Shown here piece by piece: positions 2,667-28,139 of a DNA stretch of 64,000 nt; position 1 is the stretch's first letter, and each line of letters begins with the position of its first letter. Where the stretch lies: positions 62,001 to 126,000 of the forward strand of contig WTGU01000146.1 in NCBI GenBank assembly GCA_011523425.1. The letters are read 5' to 3'. Origin of the DNA: Alphaproteobacteria bacterium (lineage in GTDB: Bacteria > Pseudomonadota > Alphaproteobacteria > UBA828). The translations under genes and the position numbers were made by a program. The notes under the pieces were generated by a model. The model was not told the DNA's origin. It was given only the letters and a program-made list of their open reading frames with translations, and did no database searches.

Positions 2667-4112
2667 GTGCGTCGCCACCGCCGCGCCAAGATCGTCGCGA
2701 CCCTCGGGCCGTCGAGCACCGATGCGTCGATGGTCCGCGCGCTGTTCGAGACCGGCGTGGACGTCTTCCGCCTCAACTTCAGCCACGGCAGCCATGCCGA
2801 GCACCGCGCCCGTCACGCCCTCGTTCGCGCGGTCGAGGCCGAGGTCGGCCGGCCCATCGGCATCCTCGTCGACCTGCAGGGGCCGAAGCTCAGGATCGGC
2901 ACCTTCCGGGGCGGCGAGGCGGCGCTCGCCCGGGGGCAGCGCTTCACGCTCGCGCTCGGCGATGCGCCGGGGGACGGAAGCGGCGTCGGCGTGCCGCACC
3001 CGCAGGTCTTCGAGGCGCTCCTGCCCGGCGCCGAGGTCCTGCTCGACGACGGCAAGGTGCGGCTCGCGGTCATCGACTGCGGCCCGGACCGGGCCGAGAC
3101 CGAGGTGGTGACGCCCGGTGTCCTCTCCGACCGCAAGGGCCTCAACCTGCCGGGCGTGACGCTCCCCATCGACGCGGTCACGGCCAAGGATCGCGACGAC
3201 CTCGCGTTCGCGCTCGGCCTCGGCGTCGACTGGGTCGCGCTCTCCTTCGTCCAGGGGCCGGAGGACATCGCCGCCGCGCGCCGCCTGGTGCCGCACGACG
3301 TGGCCATCGTGACGAAGCTGGAAAAGCCCAGGGCGCTCGACTGTCTGGAGGAGATCGTCGCGCTGTCCGACGCGATCATGGTGGCGCGCGGCGATCTCGG
3401 CGTGGAGCTCGCGCCCGAGGACGTGCCGGCCGCGCAGAAGCGGATCGTGCGGGCGGCACGCGGCGCCGGCAAGCCGGTAGTGATCGCGACCCAGATGCTG
3501 GACTCCATGATGAACGCGCCGGCGCCGACCCGGGCCGAGGCCTCGGACGTAGCGACGGCCGTCTACGACGGCGCGGACGCGCTCATGCTCTCCGGCGAAT
3601 CCGCCGCCGGGCGCTACCCTCGCGAGGCGACGGCGATGATGAACCGCATCATCGAGCGCGTGGAGCACGACGACGCCTACCGGCGCCATGTCCACTGGCA
3701 GCAGCAGGATCCGGAAGCCACCTCGGCCGACGCGATCACTGCCGCCGCCCGCCAGGTGGCGGAGACCCTCGATGCCGCCAGCATCGTGACCTACACCACC
3801 TCCGGCTCCACCGCGCTCAGGGCGGCGCGCGAGAGGCCGCCGGCGCCGATCCTGGTGCTCACGCCGAATCTCGGCACCGCACGGCGGCTCGCGCTCCTCT
3901 GGGGCGTGCACTGCATCCACACCGAAGACGCCACCGGCTTCACCGACATGGTGGAGAAGGCGTGCGCGCACGCCCTGGACTCGGGCCACGCCGCCCCCGG
4001 CGCGCGCATCGTCATCACCGCGGGCGTCCCCTTCGGCACCCCCGGCACCACGAACGCGCTGAGGATCGCCCGCGTCGGCGGAGCGCGGGAGAAAACCGGG
4101 ACGCGCGCTTGA
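2667..4112 (+). CDS. pyk: Pyruvate kinase
   Basis: This 481-aa enzyme converts phosphoenolpyruvate and ADP to pyruvate and ATP. It begins with GTG 2667. The order of motifs is standard: 'KIVATLGPSS', 'RLNFSHG', a B-domain from roughly residue 70 to 165, the catalytic lysine segment 'VTKLEKPRALD', the metal-binding 'MVARGDLGVEL', 'ATQMLDSM', and 'EASDVATAVYDGADALMLSGE' split over the active-site lid, then an allosteric C domain. Length is normal for a bacterial enzyme. It lies downstream of glycerate 2-kinase in the same orientation, which fits a glycerate-to-pyruvate module. Confidence 0.97.
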   Translation: MRRHRRAKIVATLGPSSTDASMVRALFETGVDVFRLNFSHGSHAEHRARHALVRAVEAEVGRPIGILVDLQGPKLRIGTFRGGEAALARGQRFTLALGDAPGDGSGVGVPHPQVFEALLPGAEVLLDDGKVRLAVIDCGPDRAETEVVTPGVLSDRKGLNLPGVTLPIDAVTAKDRDDLAFALGLGVDWVALSFVQGPEDIAAARRLVPHDVAIVTKLEKPRALDCLEEIVALSDAIMVARGDLGVELAPEDVPAAQKRIVRAARGAGKPVVIATQMLDSMMNAPAPTRAEASDVATAVYDGADALMLSGESAAGRYPREATAMMNRIIERVEHDDAYRRHVHWQQQDPEATSADAITAAARQVAETLDAASIVTYTTSGSTALRAARERPPAPILVLTPNLGTARRLALLWGVHCIHTEDATGFTDMVEKACAHALDSGHAAPGARIVITAGVPFGTPGTTNALRIARVGGAREKTGTRA

Positions 4113-24891: not shown

Positions 24892-24899
24892 CCTTGTTG
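24892..24899. other. Target site duplication, left
   Basis: CCTTGTTG lies immediately outside the left inverted repeat and is repeated at 28132-28139 immediately outside the right one. An 8-bp duplication agrees with IS1-family transposition. Confidence 0.9.
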
Positions 24900-24921
24900 G
24901 GTAGTGGGCTAGTTTGAAATC
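24900..24921 (+). repeat. Left terminal inverted repeat of the element
   Basis: The repeat starts GGTAGTGGGCTAGTTTG and matches the right end over 22 consecutive bases; the next base differs. The transposase stop codon (24909-24911 on the complementary strand) is inside it. The GGT start resembles classical IS1 ends. Confidence 0.92.
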
Positions 24922-25799
24922 TGCCGCTTGCGGTATGGCCCGCGCGGACCAGGCTTGGGCATCGCGTCCTCGGTGATCTGCACCAAGTCCTCGATGTCCC
25001 AGAGACGATCCGTGACGCCTGCGGCCATGGCTGGGCTGATACCGCCCAGGCTCTGGTGAGGCCGGCAGAAGTTGTAGTGCATGAAATGCAGCGCCACGCT
25101 GTGCGCGTGGTTCTCGATCTTCTTGGAGAAGGCGTTGGTCAGTCGGGTGAAGCGCCGGATCGACATGCGCATGGTCAGGTTCTGCCGCTCGACGTAGGAC
25201 GTGCTCACCGCTGCCGGATCGGGACTGCCCTCGATCTTGCGCTTGCGGATGCCGGTGCACTCCGCCGGCGAGTACCGCTTCTCGTCGCCCTTGCCGCCCG
25301 CAGAGCCGTACAGCTTCACAAGCTGCGCATAGTCCACATCGCCGCCGAAGGCACCCTCGACGGCCTCCAGGTACGCCTTGTGGCCGTCGCTGGTGAGCTG
25401 GACGCGTTTCGCCAGGCGAGGCCGCAGGTCGTCCATGAACTCAATCGCGGTGGCGCTAGAGCGATCCCCGATCTGCCATGACGGGACAAGCTTGGTGTCC
25501 GCGCAGATCGCCGTCCAGGTCCACACGTCGCCGGCCTCCGGCGGTGCAGACTTGGCGCGCGCGACGTTCTTGTCCTTCGCATAGATGAACGACCAGATCT
25601 CGTCCACCTGGATGCGCTCGCACGGGAGATCGCGCAGCGCCTCGTCCTGATAGGCCGCGCTGGCCTTTCCCGCGTTGACGAGCAGCTTCATCACGGTAGA
25701 CTTGCTCACGTCTGCCGTGCGCGCCGTGGCGCGGACGCTCATGCCCTCCACCAAGAGACGGAGGATCAGGCAGCGCTTCTCGAAAGGCAGTATGTTCAT
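24909..25799 (-). CDS. IS1-family-type DDE transposase
   Basis: This 296-aa transposase begins 'MNILPFEKRCLILRLLVEG' with an N-terminal helix-turn-helix ('SVRATARTADVSKSTVMKLL'). Probable acidic catalytic residues are in 'IQVDEIWSFIYAKDKNVA', 'LTSDGHKAYLEAV' and 'SYVERQNLTMRM'. The form is the single-frame version annotated as IS1 family in many alphaproteobacteria, without the frameshift of enteric IS1. The C-terminus includes 'FCRPHQSLGGISPAMAAG', common in these transposases. The reading frame is intact, so the element may be active. Confidence 0.9.
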   Translation of the reverse strand: MNILPFEKRCLILRLLVEGMSVRATARTADVSKSTVMKLLVNAGKASAAYQDEALRDLPCERIQVDEIWSFIYAKDKNVARAKSAPPEAGDVWTWTAICADTKLVPSWQIGDRSSATAIEFMDDLRPRLAKRVQLTSDGHKAYLEAVEGAFGGDVDYAQLVKLYGSAGGKGDEKRYSPAECTGIRKRKIEGSPDPAAVSTSYVERQNLTMRMSIRRFTRLTNAFSKKIENHAHSVALHFMHYNFCRPHQSLGGISPAMAAGVTDRLWDIEDLVQITEDAMPKPGPRGPYRKRQISN

Positions 25800-25858
25800 G
25801 CCGCCAATATGGCAGCATGGCGCATGGGTGTCAAGCAGAAGGGTTACATTGAATATGC

Positions 25859-26140
25859 CTACTGCATTCTCGGATTTGGATCGTTCACAAGCTCCGGCAT
25901 CTGAAACCGGGTGTACGTCGCCACCAACAAGCGCTGCATCGTCCGAAGACGATTCTTTTGATTTGGATCAAGCTCTTCGGGAGCTGATGCGCGAGATAGG
26001 GCTGTCAGAAGATGTAGTGAATGCCTTGCGCACCCCGGCATTTGACCGAACTCTTGGAGATATTGCCCCAAAATCTTAACGAAGGCGCTCTCAGCAGAAG
26101 CACTGTATGCTAGCGCAACAATGTCCTCATCATCGCTCAT
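25859..26140 (-). CDS. Hypothetical protein, element cargo
   Basis: This 93-aa acidic-to-neutral protein ('MSDDEDIVALAYSASAESAF' at its start) has no motif I recognise. It is supported by a good ribosome site, AGGAAAGG, 6 nt before ATG 26140, and by a start downstream of the lipoprotein gene in the same direction. The local GC content is clearly lower than the host genome. A plus-strand frame overlaps it (25855-26079) but lacks a ribosome site. A role in element maintenance or regulation is possible but unproven. Confidence 0.55.
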   Translation of the reverse strand: MSDDEDIVALAYSASAESAFVKILGQYLQEFGQMPGCARHSLHLLTALSRASAPEELDPNQKNRLRTMQRLLVATYTRFQMPELVNDPNPRMQ

Positions 26141-26171
26141 GACAGCCCTTTCCTGTCGTGGGTGGAGAGGT

Positions 26172-26191
26172 CCGGCGGTGGCAGCCGCCGG
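26172..26191 (-). terminator. GC-rich hairpin after lipoprotein gene
   Basis: CCGGCGG (26172-26178) and CCGCCGG (26185-26191) form a perfect 7-bp stem with a 6-nt loop, 11 nt past the lipoprotein stop. No T-run follows, so it may be a stability or Rho-type element rather than an intrinsic terminator. Confidence 0.4.
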
Positions 26192-26202
26192 GCCTCGTGA
26201 TT

Positions 26203-27294
26203 CTACTCTCGAAGCGCGCCGAATACTCCATCCAGCCGGTCACGCTTGAACGTTCCGCCCACCGCTTCATGCCCGGCGCCGTAGAAGGCACCGTTGAGGG
26301 ATTCGAAACCGCTGCGGTGGCTGAACGCGCCGTTCGTCAACGCCAGGCCGTCCCATGCCATGTCGGCGTGTCCTCCCGAGAAGCCGGTGAAATCCACGTC
26401 GATGGTCACGGCCGAGAAGTCCATTTCCAGGCGGGCTGACCCTTCGACCGGCGTACCAAGCTTCTCCGGGTGGGCATCGTAGGCCCGGACATCGCCGGTC
26501 CAGACCGCTGAACCGAGCGCCGGGTTACTGCCTGTGCGCGTTCCTTCGGTGTGCAGATCGTAGTCATCGGACGAGAAGATGTTGGTGTTCTCGCGGATGA
26601 CGGCTTTGAAGAGCGTCGATGCGCCCTGCGTCACCTCGACACCCCAATCGCCGAAGTCGTAGACGGGGCGCGTGCCCGAGAAGGTGCCGGGGAAGCGCCC
26701 GCCAACTGTGGTGACCGAGTAGGAGGACGTGCCGGTCCGGCGCGCGGTGCCGATCTGCGCGAGCATGGCAGAATCGGCAGGGGTTCCGGCCATGTCGTCG
26801 TCGGGCGGCGGCTCTCCGTTGCCGTTGCCTGCTGCGGCCTCGAGTTCTGCAACCCTGGCCTCGAGCATTGCCACCTGGGCGCGAAGCGCCGTCCTGTCGG
26901 CATTAGCGGTGGCCAGAGCTGCGCGAGCCGTGGTCAATGCAGCGTTCGCCGTCGCCAGCTCCGATGTGAGCCTGGAGATCTCGGCGGTATCGGCGTCGTC
27001 ATCCGCCATGGCTTGCGCGAGTGCCATCTGGGCCTCGTCCCGCGCGTTCTCGGCCACCATGACGCGCGTATTGAGATCGTCGATCTCGGCCTGCTTGGCC
27101 TCGATTTCCGCCTGAGCGGCGGTGAGGCTGGCGTTTGCGGCGGCCAAGTCGGTCCTGGCCGTTGCCAGCGCCTCTTCGGCGGTCTTGAGCTTCGCCATCA
27201 AGGCGGCATCCCCGTCATCGTCATGGAGACACCCTGAGACGAGTAGGGCGGCCGCGCCGATCGCAGTGAGACCCATCCCGATACGTGTTTTCAT
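26203..27294 (-). CDS. TbpB-like surface lipoprotein with long coiled coil, element cargo
   Basis: The 363-aa product starts at ATG 27294 and has a lipoprotein signal ('AALLVSGC', lipid-modified Cys near residue 21). Residues about 30-165 are an alanine-rich heptad coiled coil ('AEEALATARTDLAAANASL' and similar). The last 200 residues resemble the small beta-barrel of transferrin-binding-protein-B-like proteins, with the end motif 'GAFYGAGHEAVGGTF' then 'GVFGALRE'. Such domains sit on the outer surface and bind host or environmental ligands. Finding one inside an insertion element is unusual. Its 5' leader carries a strong hairpin. Confidence 0.85.
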   Translation of the reverse strand: MKTRIGMGLTAIGAAALLVSGCLHDDDGDAALMAKLKTAEEALATARTDLAAANASLTAAQAEIEAKQAEIDDLNTRVMVAENARDEAQMALAQAMADDDADTAEISRLTSELATANAALTTARAALATANADRTALRAQVAMLEARVAELEAAAGNGNGEPPPDDDMAGTPADSAMLAQIGTARRTGTSSYSVTTVGGRFPGTFSGTRPVYDFGDWGVEVTQGASTLFKAVIRENTNIFSSDDYDLHTEGTRTGSNPALGSAVWTGDVRAYDAHPEKLGTPVEGSARLEMDFSAVTIDVDFTGFSGGHADMAWDGLALTNGAFSHRSGFESLNGAFYGAGHEAVGGTFKRDRLDGVFGALRE

Positions 27295-27382
27295 GCTTCT
27301 CTCCCTGTGTCGCTCGGCTCCGGCCTGGTGCCGGGCCGTTGCAACGATCACAGGTTGAGTGAAAGCCCTGCCTATTCGCCTG

Positions 27383-27403
27383 GGCCGGGGAGCTACCCCG
27401 GCC
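27383..27403. other. Strong hairpin in lipoprotein 5' leader
   Basis: GGCCGGGG (27383-27390) and CCCCGGCC (27396-27403) form a perfect 8-bp stem with a 5-nt loop, about 90 nt upstream of the lipoprotein start. It could be an attenuator or an RNA-stability element in the divergent intergenic region of the mobile element (27295-27522). A weaker repeat CACGCT...AGCGTG is at 27481-27500. Confidence 0.4.
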
Positions 27404-27522
27404 GGGTCTTGAGGCTGTTGTATTCGGCAGGCGACCCGACAGAGCGGGCAACCTGGATCGTTGCAGGGGAGAGTGTAGCACACGCTTTATGAACAGCGTG
27501 CGTATGTGGTAGCATCGCGGTC

Positions 27523-27702
27523 ATGGCGTTGATGCTGTCGAAAACCTACGATGCGCTCGTTGCTGCAGGCGCGCCCGAGGACAAGGCCCGCGCCGCCGCT
27601 GAAGAAGTGGCGGGGATGAATGCGCGACTCATCCGGCTGGAGATCACCACAAGCATCGGCGCGGTAGGCGTCCTGATCCTACTACTCAAGGCGTTCATCT
27701 GA
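27523..27702 (+). CDS. 59-aa membrane-anchored micro-protein, element cargo
   Basis: The protein has an N-terminal amphipathic part ('MLSKTYDALVAAGAPEDKA') followed by a C-terminal membrane helix ('TTSIGAVGVLILLLKAFI'). It looks like a short version of DUF1640/CCDC90-type proteins, which are coiled coils with a terminal membrane helix; this is a weak resemblance. It overlaps the next gene by one base (TGATG), indicating coupled translation. It is divergent from the lipoprotein gene. Confidence 0.6.
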   Translation: MALMLSKTYDALVAAGAPEDKARAAAEEVAGMNARLIRLEITTSIGAVGVLILLLKAFI

Positions 27703-27917
27703 TGACCAAGGCACCGAAGCGCCCCCGCGACCCCAACCAGCTCGGGAAGAAGATCGTTGATCTCGCGACCGGGCAGGATCAGGACGAGGTCCAGGCGGTA
27801 GATGCGAAGAAGCGGGACGCTGGGCGCAAGGGAGGCGCGGCCCGTGCTGGCTCCCTCAGCTCGTCCGAGAGGTCGGAGATCGCCCGCGCCGCCGCAGGGG
27901 CGCGCTGGGAACGATGA
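27702..27917 (+). CDS. 71-aa basic protein with KGG/ARW motif, element cargo
   Basis: This small, charged protein begins 'MTKAPKRPRDPNQLGKKIVD' and ends 'SSERSEIARAAAGARW' plus 'ER'. The 'RKGGAARA...LS..ER..IA..AA.ARW' pattern is known from many short alphaproteobacterial proteins often annotated as histone-like or hypothetical, some of them near transposases. It overlaps its neighbours by 1 and 4 bases, so all three form one translationally coupled unit. Nucleic-acid binding is plausible from its basic character only. Confidence 0.65.
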   Translation: MTKAPKRPRDPNQLGKKIVDLATGQDQDEVQAVDAKKRDAGRKGGAARAGSLSSSERSEIARAAAGARWER

Positions 27918-28111
27918 CACGCCGCGAACTGCTGGCGAGTGCGTCAATCGCTGTGATCGCGCAAGCCATGCCGATCTATGAAGCGGCCCGGCGCTTGGTG
28001 CCGCCGCCAGACGTTCATCTGAAGACGGCGCTACGTGCGTCTGGCCTGGGAAGCGCTACCCCTGGAAAGCGCCGCAACCCAGTCCCCGATCAACCCATAA
28101 AGCTCGCCTGA
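27914..28111 (+). CDS. 65-aa hypothetical protein ending in the right inverted repeat
   Basis: The product starts 'MTRRELLASASIAVIAQAMP' with a short hydrophobic stretch after two arginines, and then a proline-rich, basic tail. It starts at an ATGA overlap with the 71-aa gene. Its TGA (28109-28111) enters the right inverted repeat. The translation past residue 40 has low complexity, so the true end may have been set by the element boundary. No family is recognised. Confidence 0.45.
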   Translation: MTRRELLASASIAVIAQAMPIYEAARRLVPPPDVHLKTALRASGLGSATPGKRRNPVPDQPIKLA

Positions 28112-28131
28112 TTTCAAACTAGCCCACTACC
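28110..28131 (-). repeat. Right terminal inverted repeat of the element
   Basis: This is the exact reverse complement of 24900-24921 over 22 bases, ending CCCACTACC at 28131. It is followed directly by the second copy of the 8-bp target duplication. Confidence 0.92.
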
Positions 28132-28139
28132 CCTTGTTG
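28132..28139. other. Target site duplication, right
   Basis: CCTTGTTG is identical to 24892-24899. The insertion lies about 125 bp upstream of the betaine importer start, in what was probably its upstream region. Confidence 0.9.

Follow-up and report, generated by a model that had tools for sequence, protein, structure and literature searches.

A transporter insertion sequence with IS1-like transposase, exchangeable cargo and a linked small basic protein in an alphaproteobacterial genome

IS1-type transposases are normally confined to elements of about 1 kb, and the family is thought to need only its transposase. In IS1 proper, the transposase is encoded by the overlapping ORFs insA and insB′ with a frameshift, and 24 residues lie between the second D and the E, while the ends of the family's elements follow the consensus GGnnnTG. 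One group in ISfinder, ISMhu11, reportedly reaches about 4.6 kb. Passenger genes have been described on so-called transporter IS (tIS) of several IS families (PMC7986276, PMC9330008). The element described here is of this known kind, a transporter IS. It lies in a stretch of alphaproteobacterial DNA of 64,000 nucleotides (the window), where it spans positions 24900-28131 (3,232 bp). From left to right, the features are:

24892-24899, no strand: left copy of the target-site duplication, CCTTGTTG (sequence)
24900-24921, plus strand: left terminal inverted repeat, GGTAGTGGGCTAGTTTGAAATC (sequence; end type recurs in 70 relatives)
24909-25799, minus strand: single-ORF IS1-like transposase, 296 aa, with conserved D66, D138 and E204 (PF03400, NF033558, conservation in relatives)
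25859-26140, minus strand: 93-aa ORF separating the lipoprotein from the transposase (no family match)
26203-27294, minus strand: cargo lipoprotein, 363 aa, with lipobox LLVSGC, coiled coil and Slam-type C-terminal domain (NF041636, PF01298)
27322-27440, minus strand: sRNA-Xcc1-like structured leader RNA (RF02221, 29.1 bits; model R1, 124.7 bits; position)
27523-27702, plus strand: 59-aa ORF that overlaps the start codon of KARW and has a hydrophobic C-terminal segment (ORF list)
27702-27917, plus strand: KARW protein, 71 aa, second conserved gene of the family (family profile, 88.5 bits; 61/70 elements)
27914-28111, plus strand: 65-aa ORF that overlaps the stop codon of KARW and reaches as far as the right inverted repeat (ORF list)
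28110-28131, minus strand: right terminal inverted repeat (sequence)
28132-28139, no strand: right copy of the target-site duplication, CCTTGTTG (sequence)

An initial annotation of this DNA had proposed a unit of 3,232 bp that encodes an intact transposase, is bounded by perfect inverted repeats of 22 bp and sits between the two copies of an 8-bp target duplication; the coordinates it gave proved exact. Both ends match perfectly over 22 bp and begin with GGTAGTG, which fits GGnnnTG. The observation that the outermost genes end in the repeats also holds, in that the TAG stop of the transposase sits within the left repeat and the stop of the 65-aa ORF (28109-28111) overlaps the first two bases of the right one. 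In its own genome (3.6 Mb, 159 contigs) the element is present in one copy. Three genomes of the same genus possess both flanking genes and lack the element, and their alignment to the window picks up again at TTGCCACGG, which is made up of the last 3 bases of the duplication and the right flank. An empty site in relatives, which had been proposed as a check, was thus found in part: the insert is missing from the three congeners, but their left intergenic sequence has diverged, such that the full empty octamer is unreadable. The transposition had furthermore been called recent, which the data do not establish: the duplication is intact, yet the element is single-copy and the congeners have diverged.

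The transposase matches PF03400 with 33.5 bits (cut-off 24.1) and the IS1 equivalog model NF033558 with 69 bits, under its cut-off of 100. D66, D138 and E204 are at least 95% conserved among 96 relatives. The PF03400 domain, the GGnnnTG ends and a duplication of 8 bp (8-9 bp being expected) are features of the IS1 family. The overlapping insA/insB′ ORFs, the frameshift and the D-(24)-E arrangement of IS1 proper are absent, and there is instead one ORF of 296 aa with 65 residues between D138 and E204. Because of the single ORF and this D-E distance, the transposase is to be classed as IS1-like, not as IS1 proper, and the element probably belongs to the single-ORF ISMhu11-type group of the IS1 family. 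In a search of the open-licence literature, no paper was found that names ISMhu11 or describes an IS1-type transposon with defence genes. An unannotated, distant relative of the transposase (33%) is found in the jumbo phage Brevundimonas phage vB_BpoS-Gurke (ON529850.1, 174788-175666).

Relatives were collected in two sets, the first by scanning genome contigs with the transposase, without regard to cargo, which gave 80 loci, and the second from class-mates and plasmids. Ends and duplications were located by a script that required ends of the form GG[TC][AGC][CG]TG, and one duplicate was removed. This yielded 70 related elements with matching ends and a perfect 8-bp duplication; their end variants all conform to GGnnnTG, as the finder itself demanded. 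Their hosts belong to about a dozen phyla (approximately thirteen from the record names), many being metagenome bins, for which single host names may be wrong. The elements measure 1,476-4,779 bp (median 2,998), with one of the 70 below 1.5 kb, and no bare IS of about 1 kb with a transposase of this type was seen in this search, which was centred on its clade. Cargo inside IS1-type ends, which had been presented as an oddity of one copy, is thus confirmed but is the rule in this transposase family, since all 70 elements exceed a bare IS.

The cargo is exchanged between elements. Two pairs of relatives have transposases of 92% (L020 and L026, from one genome bin) and 94% identity (L025 and L028, from two isolates), and within each pair the DNA similarity is limited to the termini, the transposase block and a block at the end that holds KARW; the cargoes have no DNA match. 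L158 is the closest relative of the window element (transposase 83-84%), and the two differ for most of the cargo. A quick transposase tree shows seven recurrent cargo types in scattered positions, requiring 18 changes (minimum 6, shuffled mean 21.7). The initial annotation had called for a search for the same transposase with different cargo, and had named cargo fixed in every copy as evidence against a transporter IS. Near-identical transposases do indeed come with unrelated cargo, in one case inside a single genome bin, and the exchange in the two pairs rules out fixed cargo. The tIS reading is supported: passengers of a tIS lie between the ends of one IS and move with it as a unit, and here cargo lies inside duplicated ends in 70 elements and is exchanged between near-identical vehicles.

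Besides the transposase, a second gene, that for KARW, is conserved: it is present in 61 of the 70 duplicated elements and absent from nine. It had been counted among three "micro-genes" of the payload, but the one at 27702-27917 (71 aa) is a conserved core gene. The family consensus reads KRPxDxNQLAKxIVDxATG ... GGLKGGKARAxxLTxxxRSEIAKKAAxARW; the window protein has a calculated pI of 10.3, and its AlphaFold2 model consists of three helices (mean pLDDT 79.5, pTM 0.39). In 50 of the 61 elements the frame starts at most 350 bp from the end opposite the transposase; its orientation is reversed relative to the usual one in the window element, L158 and L008. An independent search of 289 class-mates placed 20 of 28 KARW hits no more than 4.5 kb from a transposase hit; conversely, KARW accompanies 18 of the 22 best transposase hits. 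The window's own genome has one KARW, that of the element. When 72,556 plasmids were queried with the KARW protein of M. loti, both hits obtained lay inside related elements, and one of them carries the NCBI label "histone H1". This linkage in class-mates and plasmids rules out that KARW is an accident of the window element. Because KARW persists while the cargo changes, we read it as part of the vehicle, and, given its linkage, its most likely role is to bind DNA and to help or regulate transposition.

The 93-aa, 59-aa and 65-aa ORFs have no family match in Pfam, NCBIfam or PHROGs. A small variable ORF that directly precedes KARW and overlaps its start, like the 59-aa ORF of the window (27523-27702), is also seen in L120, L121, L122, L160, L161 and L172. 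P63C-domain proteins of L033, L037, L057, L058 and L119 bear a KARW-like N-terminal motif (PHROG 2384 match), a possible clue to function.

With respect to the payload of the family, defence genes and toxin-antitoxin genes recur. PADLOC defence models (E ≤ 1e-5) matched 11 of 19 cargo proteins of the relatives and none of 10 large flanking proteins, in a small, non-random sample chosen by size (large ORFs), with heuristic ORF calls and with some models, such as those for methylases, being generic. The cargo includes RosmerTA antitoxins (L013, L123 and L173; 205-633 bits), PD-Lambda-2_B (L017, L121 and L159), a type IIG restriction enzyme (L008, 479 bits), a DNA methylase with an Mrr-type nuclease domain (L011), HEC-04 (L029), a PDC-S13/DinD-like protein (L165), SocA/Panacea (L016), AbiD/Abi_2 beside a dCTP-deaminase-like protein (L048), STAND-type NTPases (L027) and a HigA-like antitoxin (L172). 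P63C proteins with a KARW-like N-terminus were also among the sampled cargo. Both RmrA and Panacea proteins serve as antitoxins in toxin-antitoxin systems that have been linked with defence against phages (PMC10440598). The window element's own cargo matched no PADLOC model; that it is a putative adaptive payload, as the initial annotation had it, is plausible. A chrB-a cis-regulatory RNA (67 bits) lies at 3318-3403 (minus) of L013, just beyond the element boundary at 3452.

The window lipoprotein scores 29.3 bits against NF041636 (Slam-dependent surface lipoprotein), far under the cut-off of 80, and its match to PF01298 (TbpB) is weak. L158 carries another lipoprotein, with a zinc-protease-like motif (HELLHALGRGH); the N-terminal regions of the two differ, and the C-terminal domain is common to both (30% identity over 119 residues). 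Furthermore, the last domain (C4:31157-31654) of a host protein of 1,122 aa is 44% identical to the C-terminal domain of the cargo protein, and this gene lies about 16 kb from one for Slam (SlipAM protein; PF04575, 85.5 bits; C4:14811-15566). Each of the four genomes in which the C-terminal domain is known has a Slam; among the other, non-congeneric members of the class or family that were tested, it was found in G055, in G036 and, weakly, in G028. A PDB sequence search with the domain gave no hit, and an AlphaFold2 model of the C-terminal region alone was unusable (pLDDT 37.7). The host Slam, the shared domain and the occurrence of Slam in domain-bearing genomes point to a surface protein that uses an export route of the host, and the element thus probably supplies a surface lipoprotein exported via Slam. 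On the same host contig C4 (L229, 1809-5265), the Slam gene adjoins a gene for a 627-aa coiled-coil lipoprotein of similar architecture to the cargo lipoprotein; BLAST detected no similarity between these two lipoproteins.

The lipoprotein start codon is preceded, at a distance of 28 nt, by the structured RNA, whose RF02221 score lies below the gathering score of 53; it is a related but distinct variant of sRNA-Xcc1. An RNA model built from three examples recovers the leader from L118 (84 bits) and L175 (73 bits), with a weak match in L007. The window element, L158, L118 and L175 all have it ending just ahead of a cargo-gene start, and the cargo genes concerned differ. A second copy in the window's own genome lies upstream of a GIY-YIG gene in an element of the IS1595 type. 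This 2.46-kb element (contig C16; L002; L230, 2478-4938) is flanked by an 8-bp duplication of its own, TCAATATT, and has the ends GGGGATTATATA. Across the phylum, 22 of 30 Rfam-grade sRNA-Xcc1 hits are followed at 20-60 nt by an ATG ORF that has a motif resembling a ribosome site; on the opposite side this holds for none of the 30, and at random points for 7.5%. A cis-acting 5′ leader is favoured for this reason. This suggests that sRNA-Xcc1-like RNAs form a class of cis-acting 5′ leaders of mobile genes and are not trans-acting sRNAs; the window leader probably controls expression of the lipoprotein. The hits L178-L207 nearly all end 20-60 nt ahead of a gene start, often that of a phage-type gene, with up to nine copies per genome. 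Integron cassettes are a known setting of sRNA-Xcc1, which there lies upstream of symE (PMC12444791).

Taken together, these data make it very probable, in our view, that the element is a transporter IS whose vehicle consists of an IS1-like transposase and KARW, with exchangeable cargo that here is a lipoprotein under a leader RNA. The single-ORF transposase, presumably of the DDE type in its chemistry, would act on the 22-bp GGTAGTG ends and move all DNA between them, thereby generating the 8-bp duplication, and the element may still be mobile today. The two vehicle genes, the transposase at one end and the small, basic, three-helix KARW near the other, would enclose the exchangeable cargo, in many cases a module for defence or of the toxin-antitoxin type. 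KARW would bind DNA and assist or regulate transposition, and the lipoprotein would probably reach the cell surface through the outer-membrane Slam machinery of the host, its expression being probably controlled by the 5′ leader. A bolder reading, which we hold tentatively and consider possible, is that transposase and KARW form the two-gene core of a widespread, compact class of transposons specialised in spreading defence and toxin-antitoxin modules across phyla, with KARW allowing an IS1-type transposase to move several kb of cargo.

Other explanations have to be weighed against the transporter vehicle with a KARW core. The element could be an ordinary tIS of the IS1 family, of the ISMhu11 type recognised by ISfinder, in which passengers are of no particular kind and KARW is one of them. 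The GGnnnTG ends and the 8-bp duplication would suit the IS1 family, and the length that the ISMhu11 group is said to reach would also allow for it. Passenger-bearing tIS, moreover, have precedent in several IS families (PMC7986276, PMC9330008). However, KARW is kept, and kept in place, despite changes of cargo, unlike a passenger, and defence-model matches are far commoner in cargo than in flanking genes; hence we regard this reading as rather unlikely. It is even less likely that the repeats and the duplication are a coincidence and the genes an ordinary chromosomal island, a reading whose probability we consider negligible: the congeners are indeed too diverged for the full empty octamer to be read, but the whole insert is missing in three of them, and matching ends with perfect duplications around 70 related transposases argue against chance.

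Two further alternatives concern the parts. KARW might retain the element as an antitoxin, immunity or addiction factor instead of serving transposition; it is small, basic and helical, it is often translationally coupled to another small ORF, many cargoes are toxin-antitoxin systems, and its motif is found fused to P63C proteins. However, the adjoining ORF is not conserved in sequence between elements, such that no constant toxin partner is seen, and we deem this role unlikely. The lipoprotein, for its part, could act in surface exclusion or in masking a phage receptor, and thus be defence cargo like that of the relatives. This would fit the placement at the surface that is predicted from its lipobox, its Slam-type C-terminal domain and the Slam of the host, as well as the defence cargo elsewhere in the family and the presence in L158 of another lipoprotein with the same C-terminal domain and a different N-terminal region, but there is no PADLOC hit, and nutrient binding or adhesion is equally possible, which makes a defence function improbable at present.

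Small defence modules are scattered over genomes, and their route of travel is often unclear. A vehicle of about 3 kb with recognisable ends and the tell-tale KARW would allow cargo to be delimited exactly and new candidate defence genes to be found by position. KARW itself is a candidate accessory transposition factor in a family thought to rely on the transposase, and, judging from the leader, RNAs of the sRNA-Xcc1 type may act as 5′ control elements for cargo genes that are mobile. Cargo throughout the family, linkage of the KARW gene, a payload rich in defence genes and a leader shared by several elements appear to be new, as no description of them was found in open-licence papers.

In comparison with known systems, the family shares with the single-ORF (ISMhu11-type) group of IS1 the PF03400 domain, GGTAGTG (GGnnnTG) ends, the 8-bp duplication and DDE-type acidic residues, whereas it differs from IS1 in its one ORF, its D-E gap of 65 residues (24 in IS1), its length of 1.5-4.8 kb and its KARW gene and cargo. 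The lipoprotein resembles Slam-dependent surface lipoproteins in its lipobox, its C-terminal domain reminiscent of TbpB-like barrels and the host-encoded Slam, but its match is far below the family cut-off, and it is borne by a transposon. The leader has the conserved AATACAA and GAATA segments, the closing helix and the mobile-element setting of sRNA-Xcc1 (RF02221; PMC12444791), yet it is extended and sub-threshold, and its position just before a gene start marks it as a 5′ leader and not a free sRNA. Like Tn7-like transposons with defence cargo (PMC8649781), the family is a transposon vehicle that spreads varied defence and toxin-antitoxin modules to distant hosts, but it does so with about 3 kb, one IS1-like transposase and no TnsABCD-type machinery in the ORF lists. 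Transporter IS are likewise single IS units with passenger genes unrelated to transposition (PMC9330008, PMC7986276), from which the family is set apart by cargo that is family-wide and exchangeable and by its conserved second gene.
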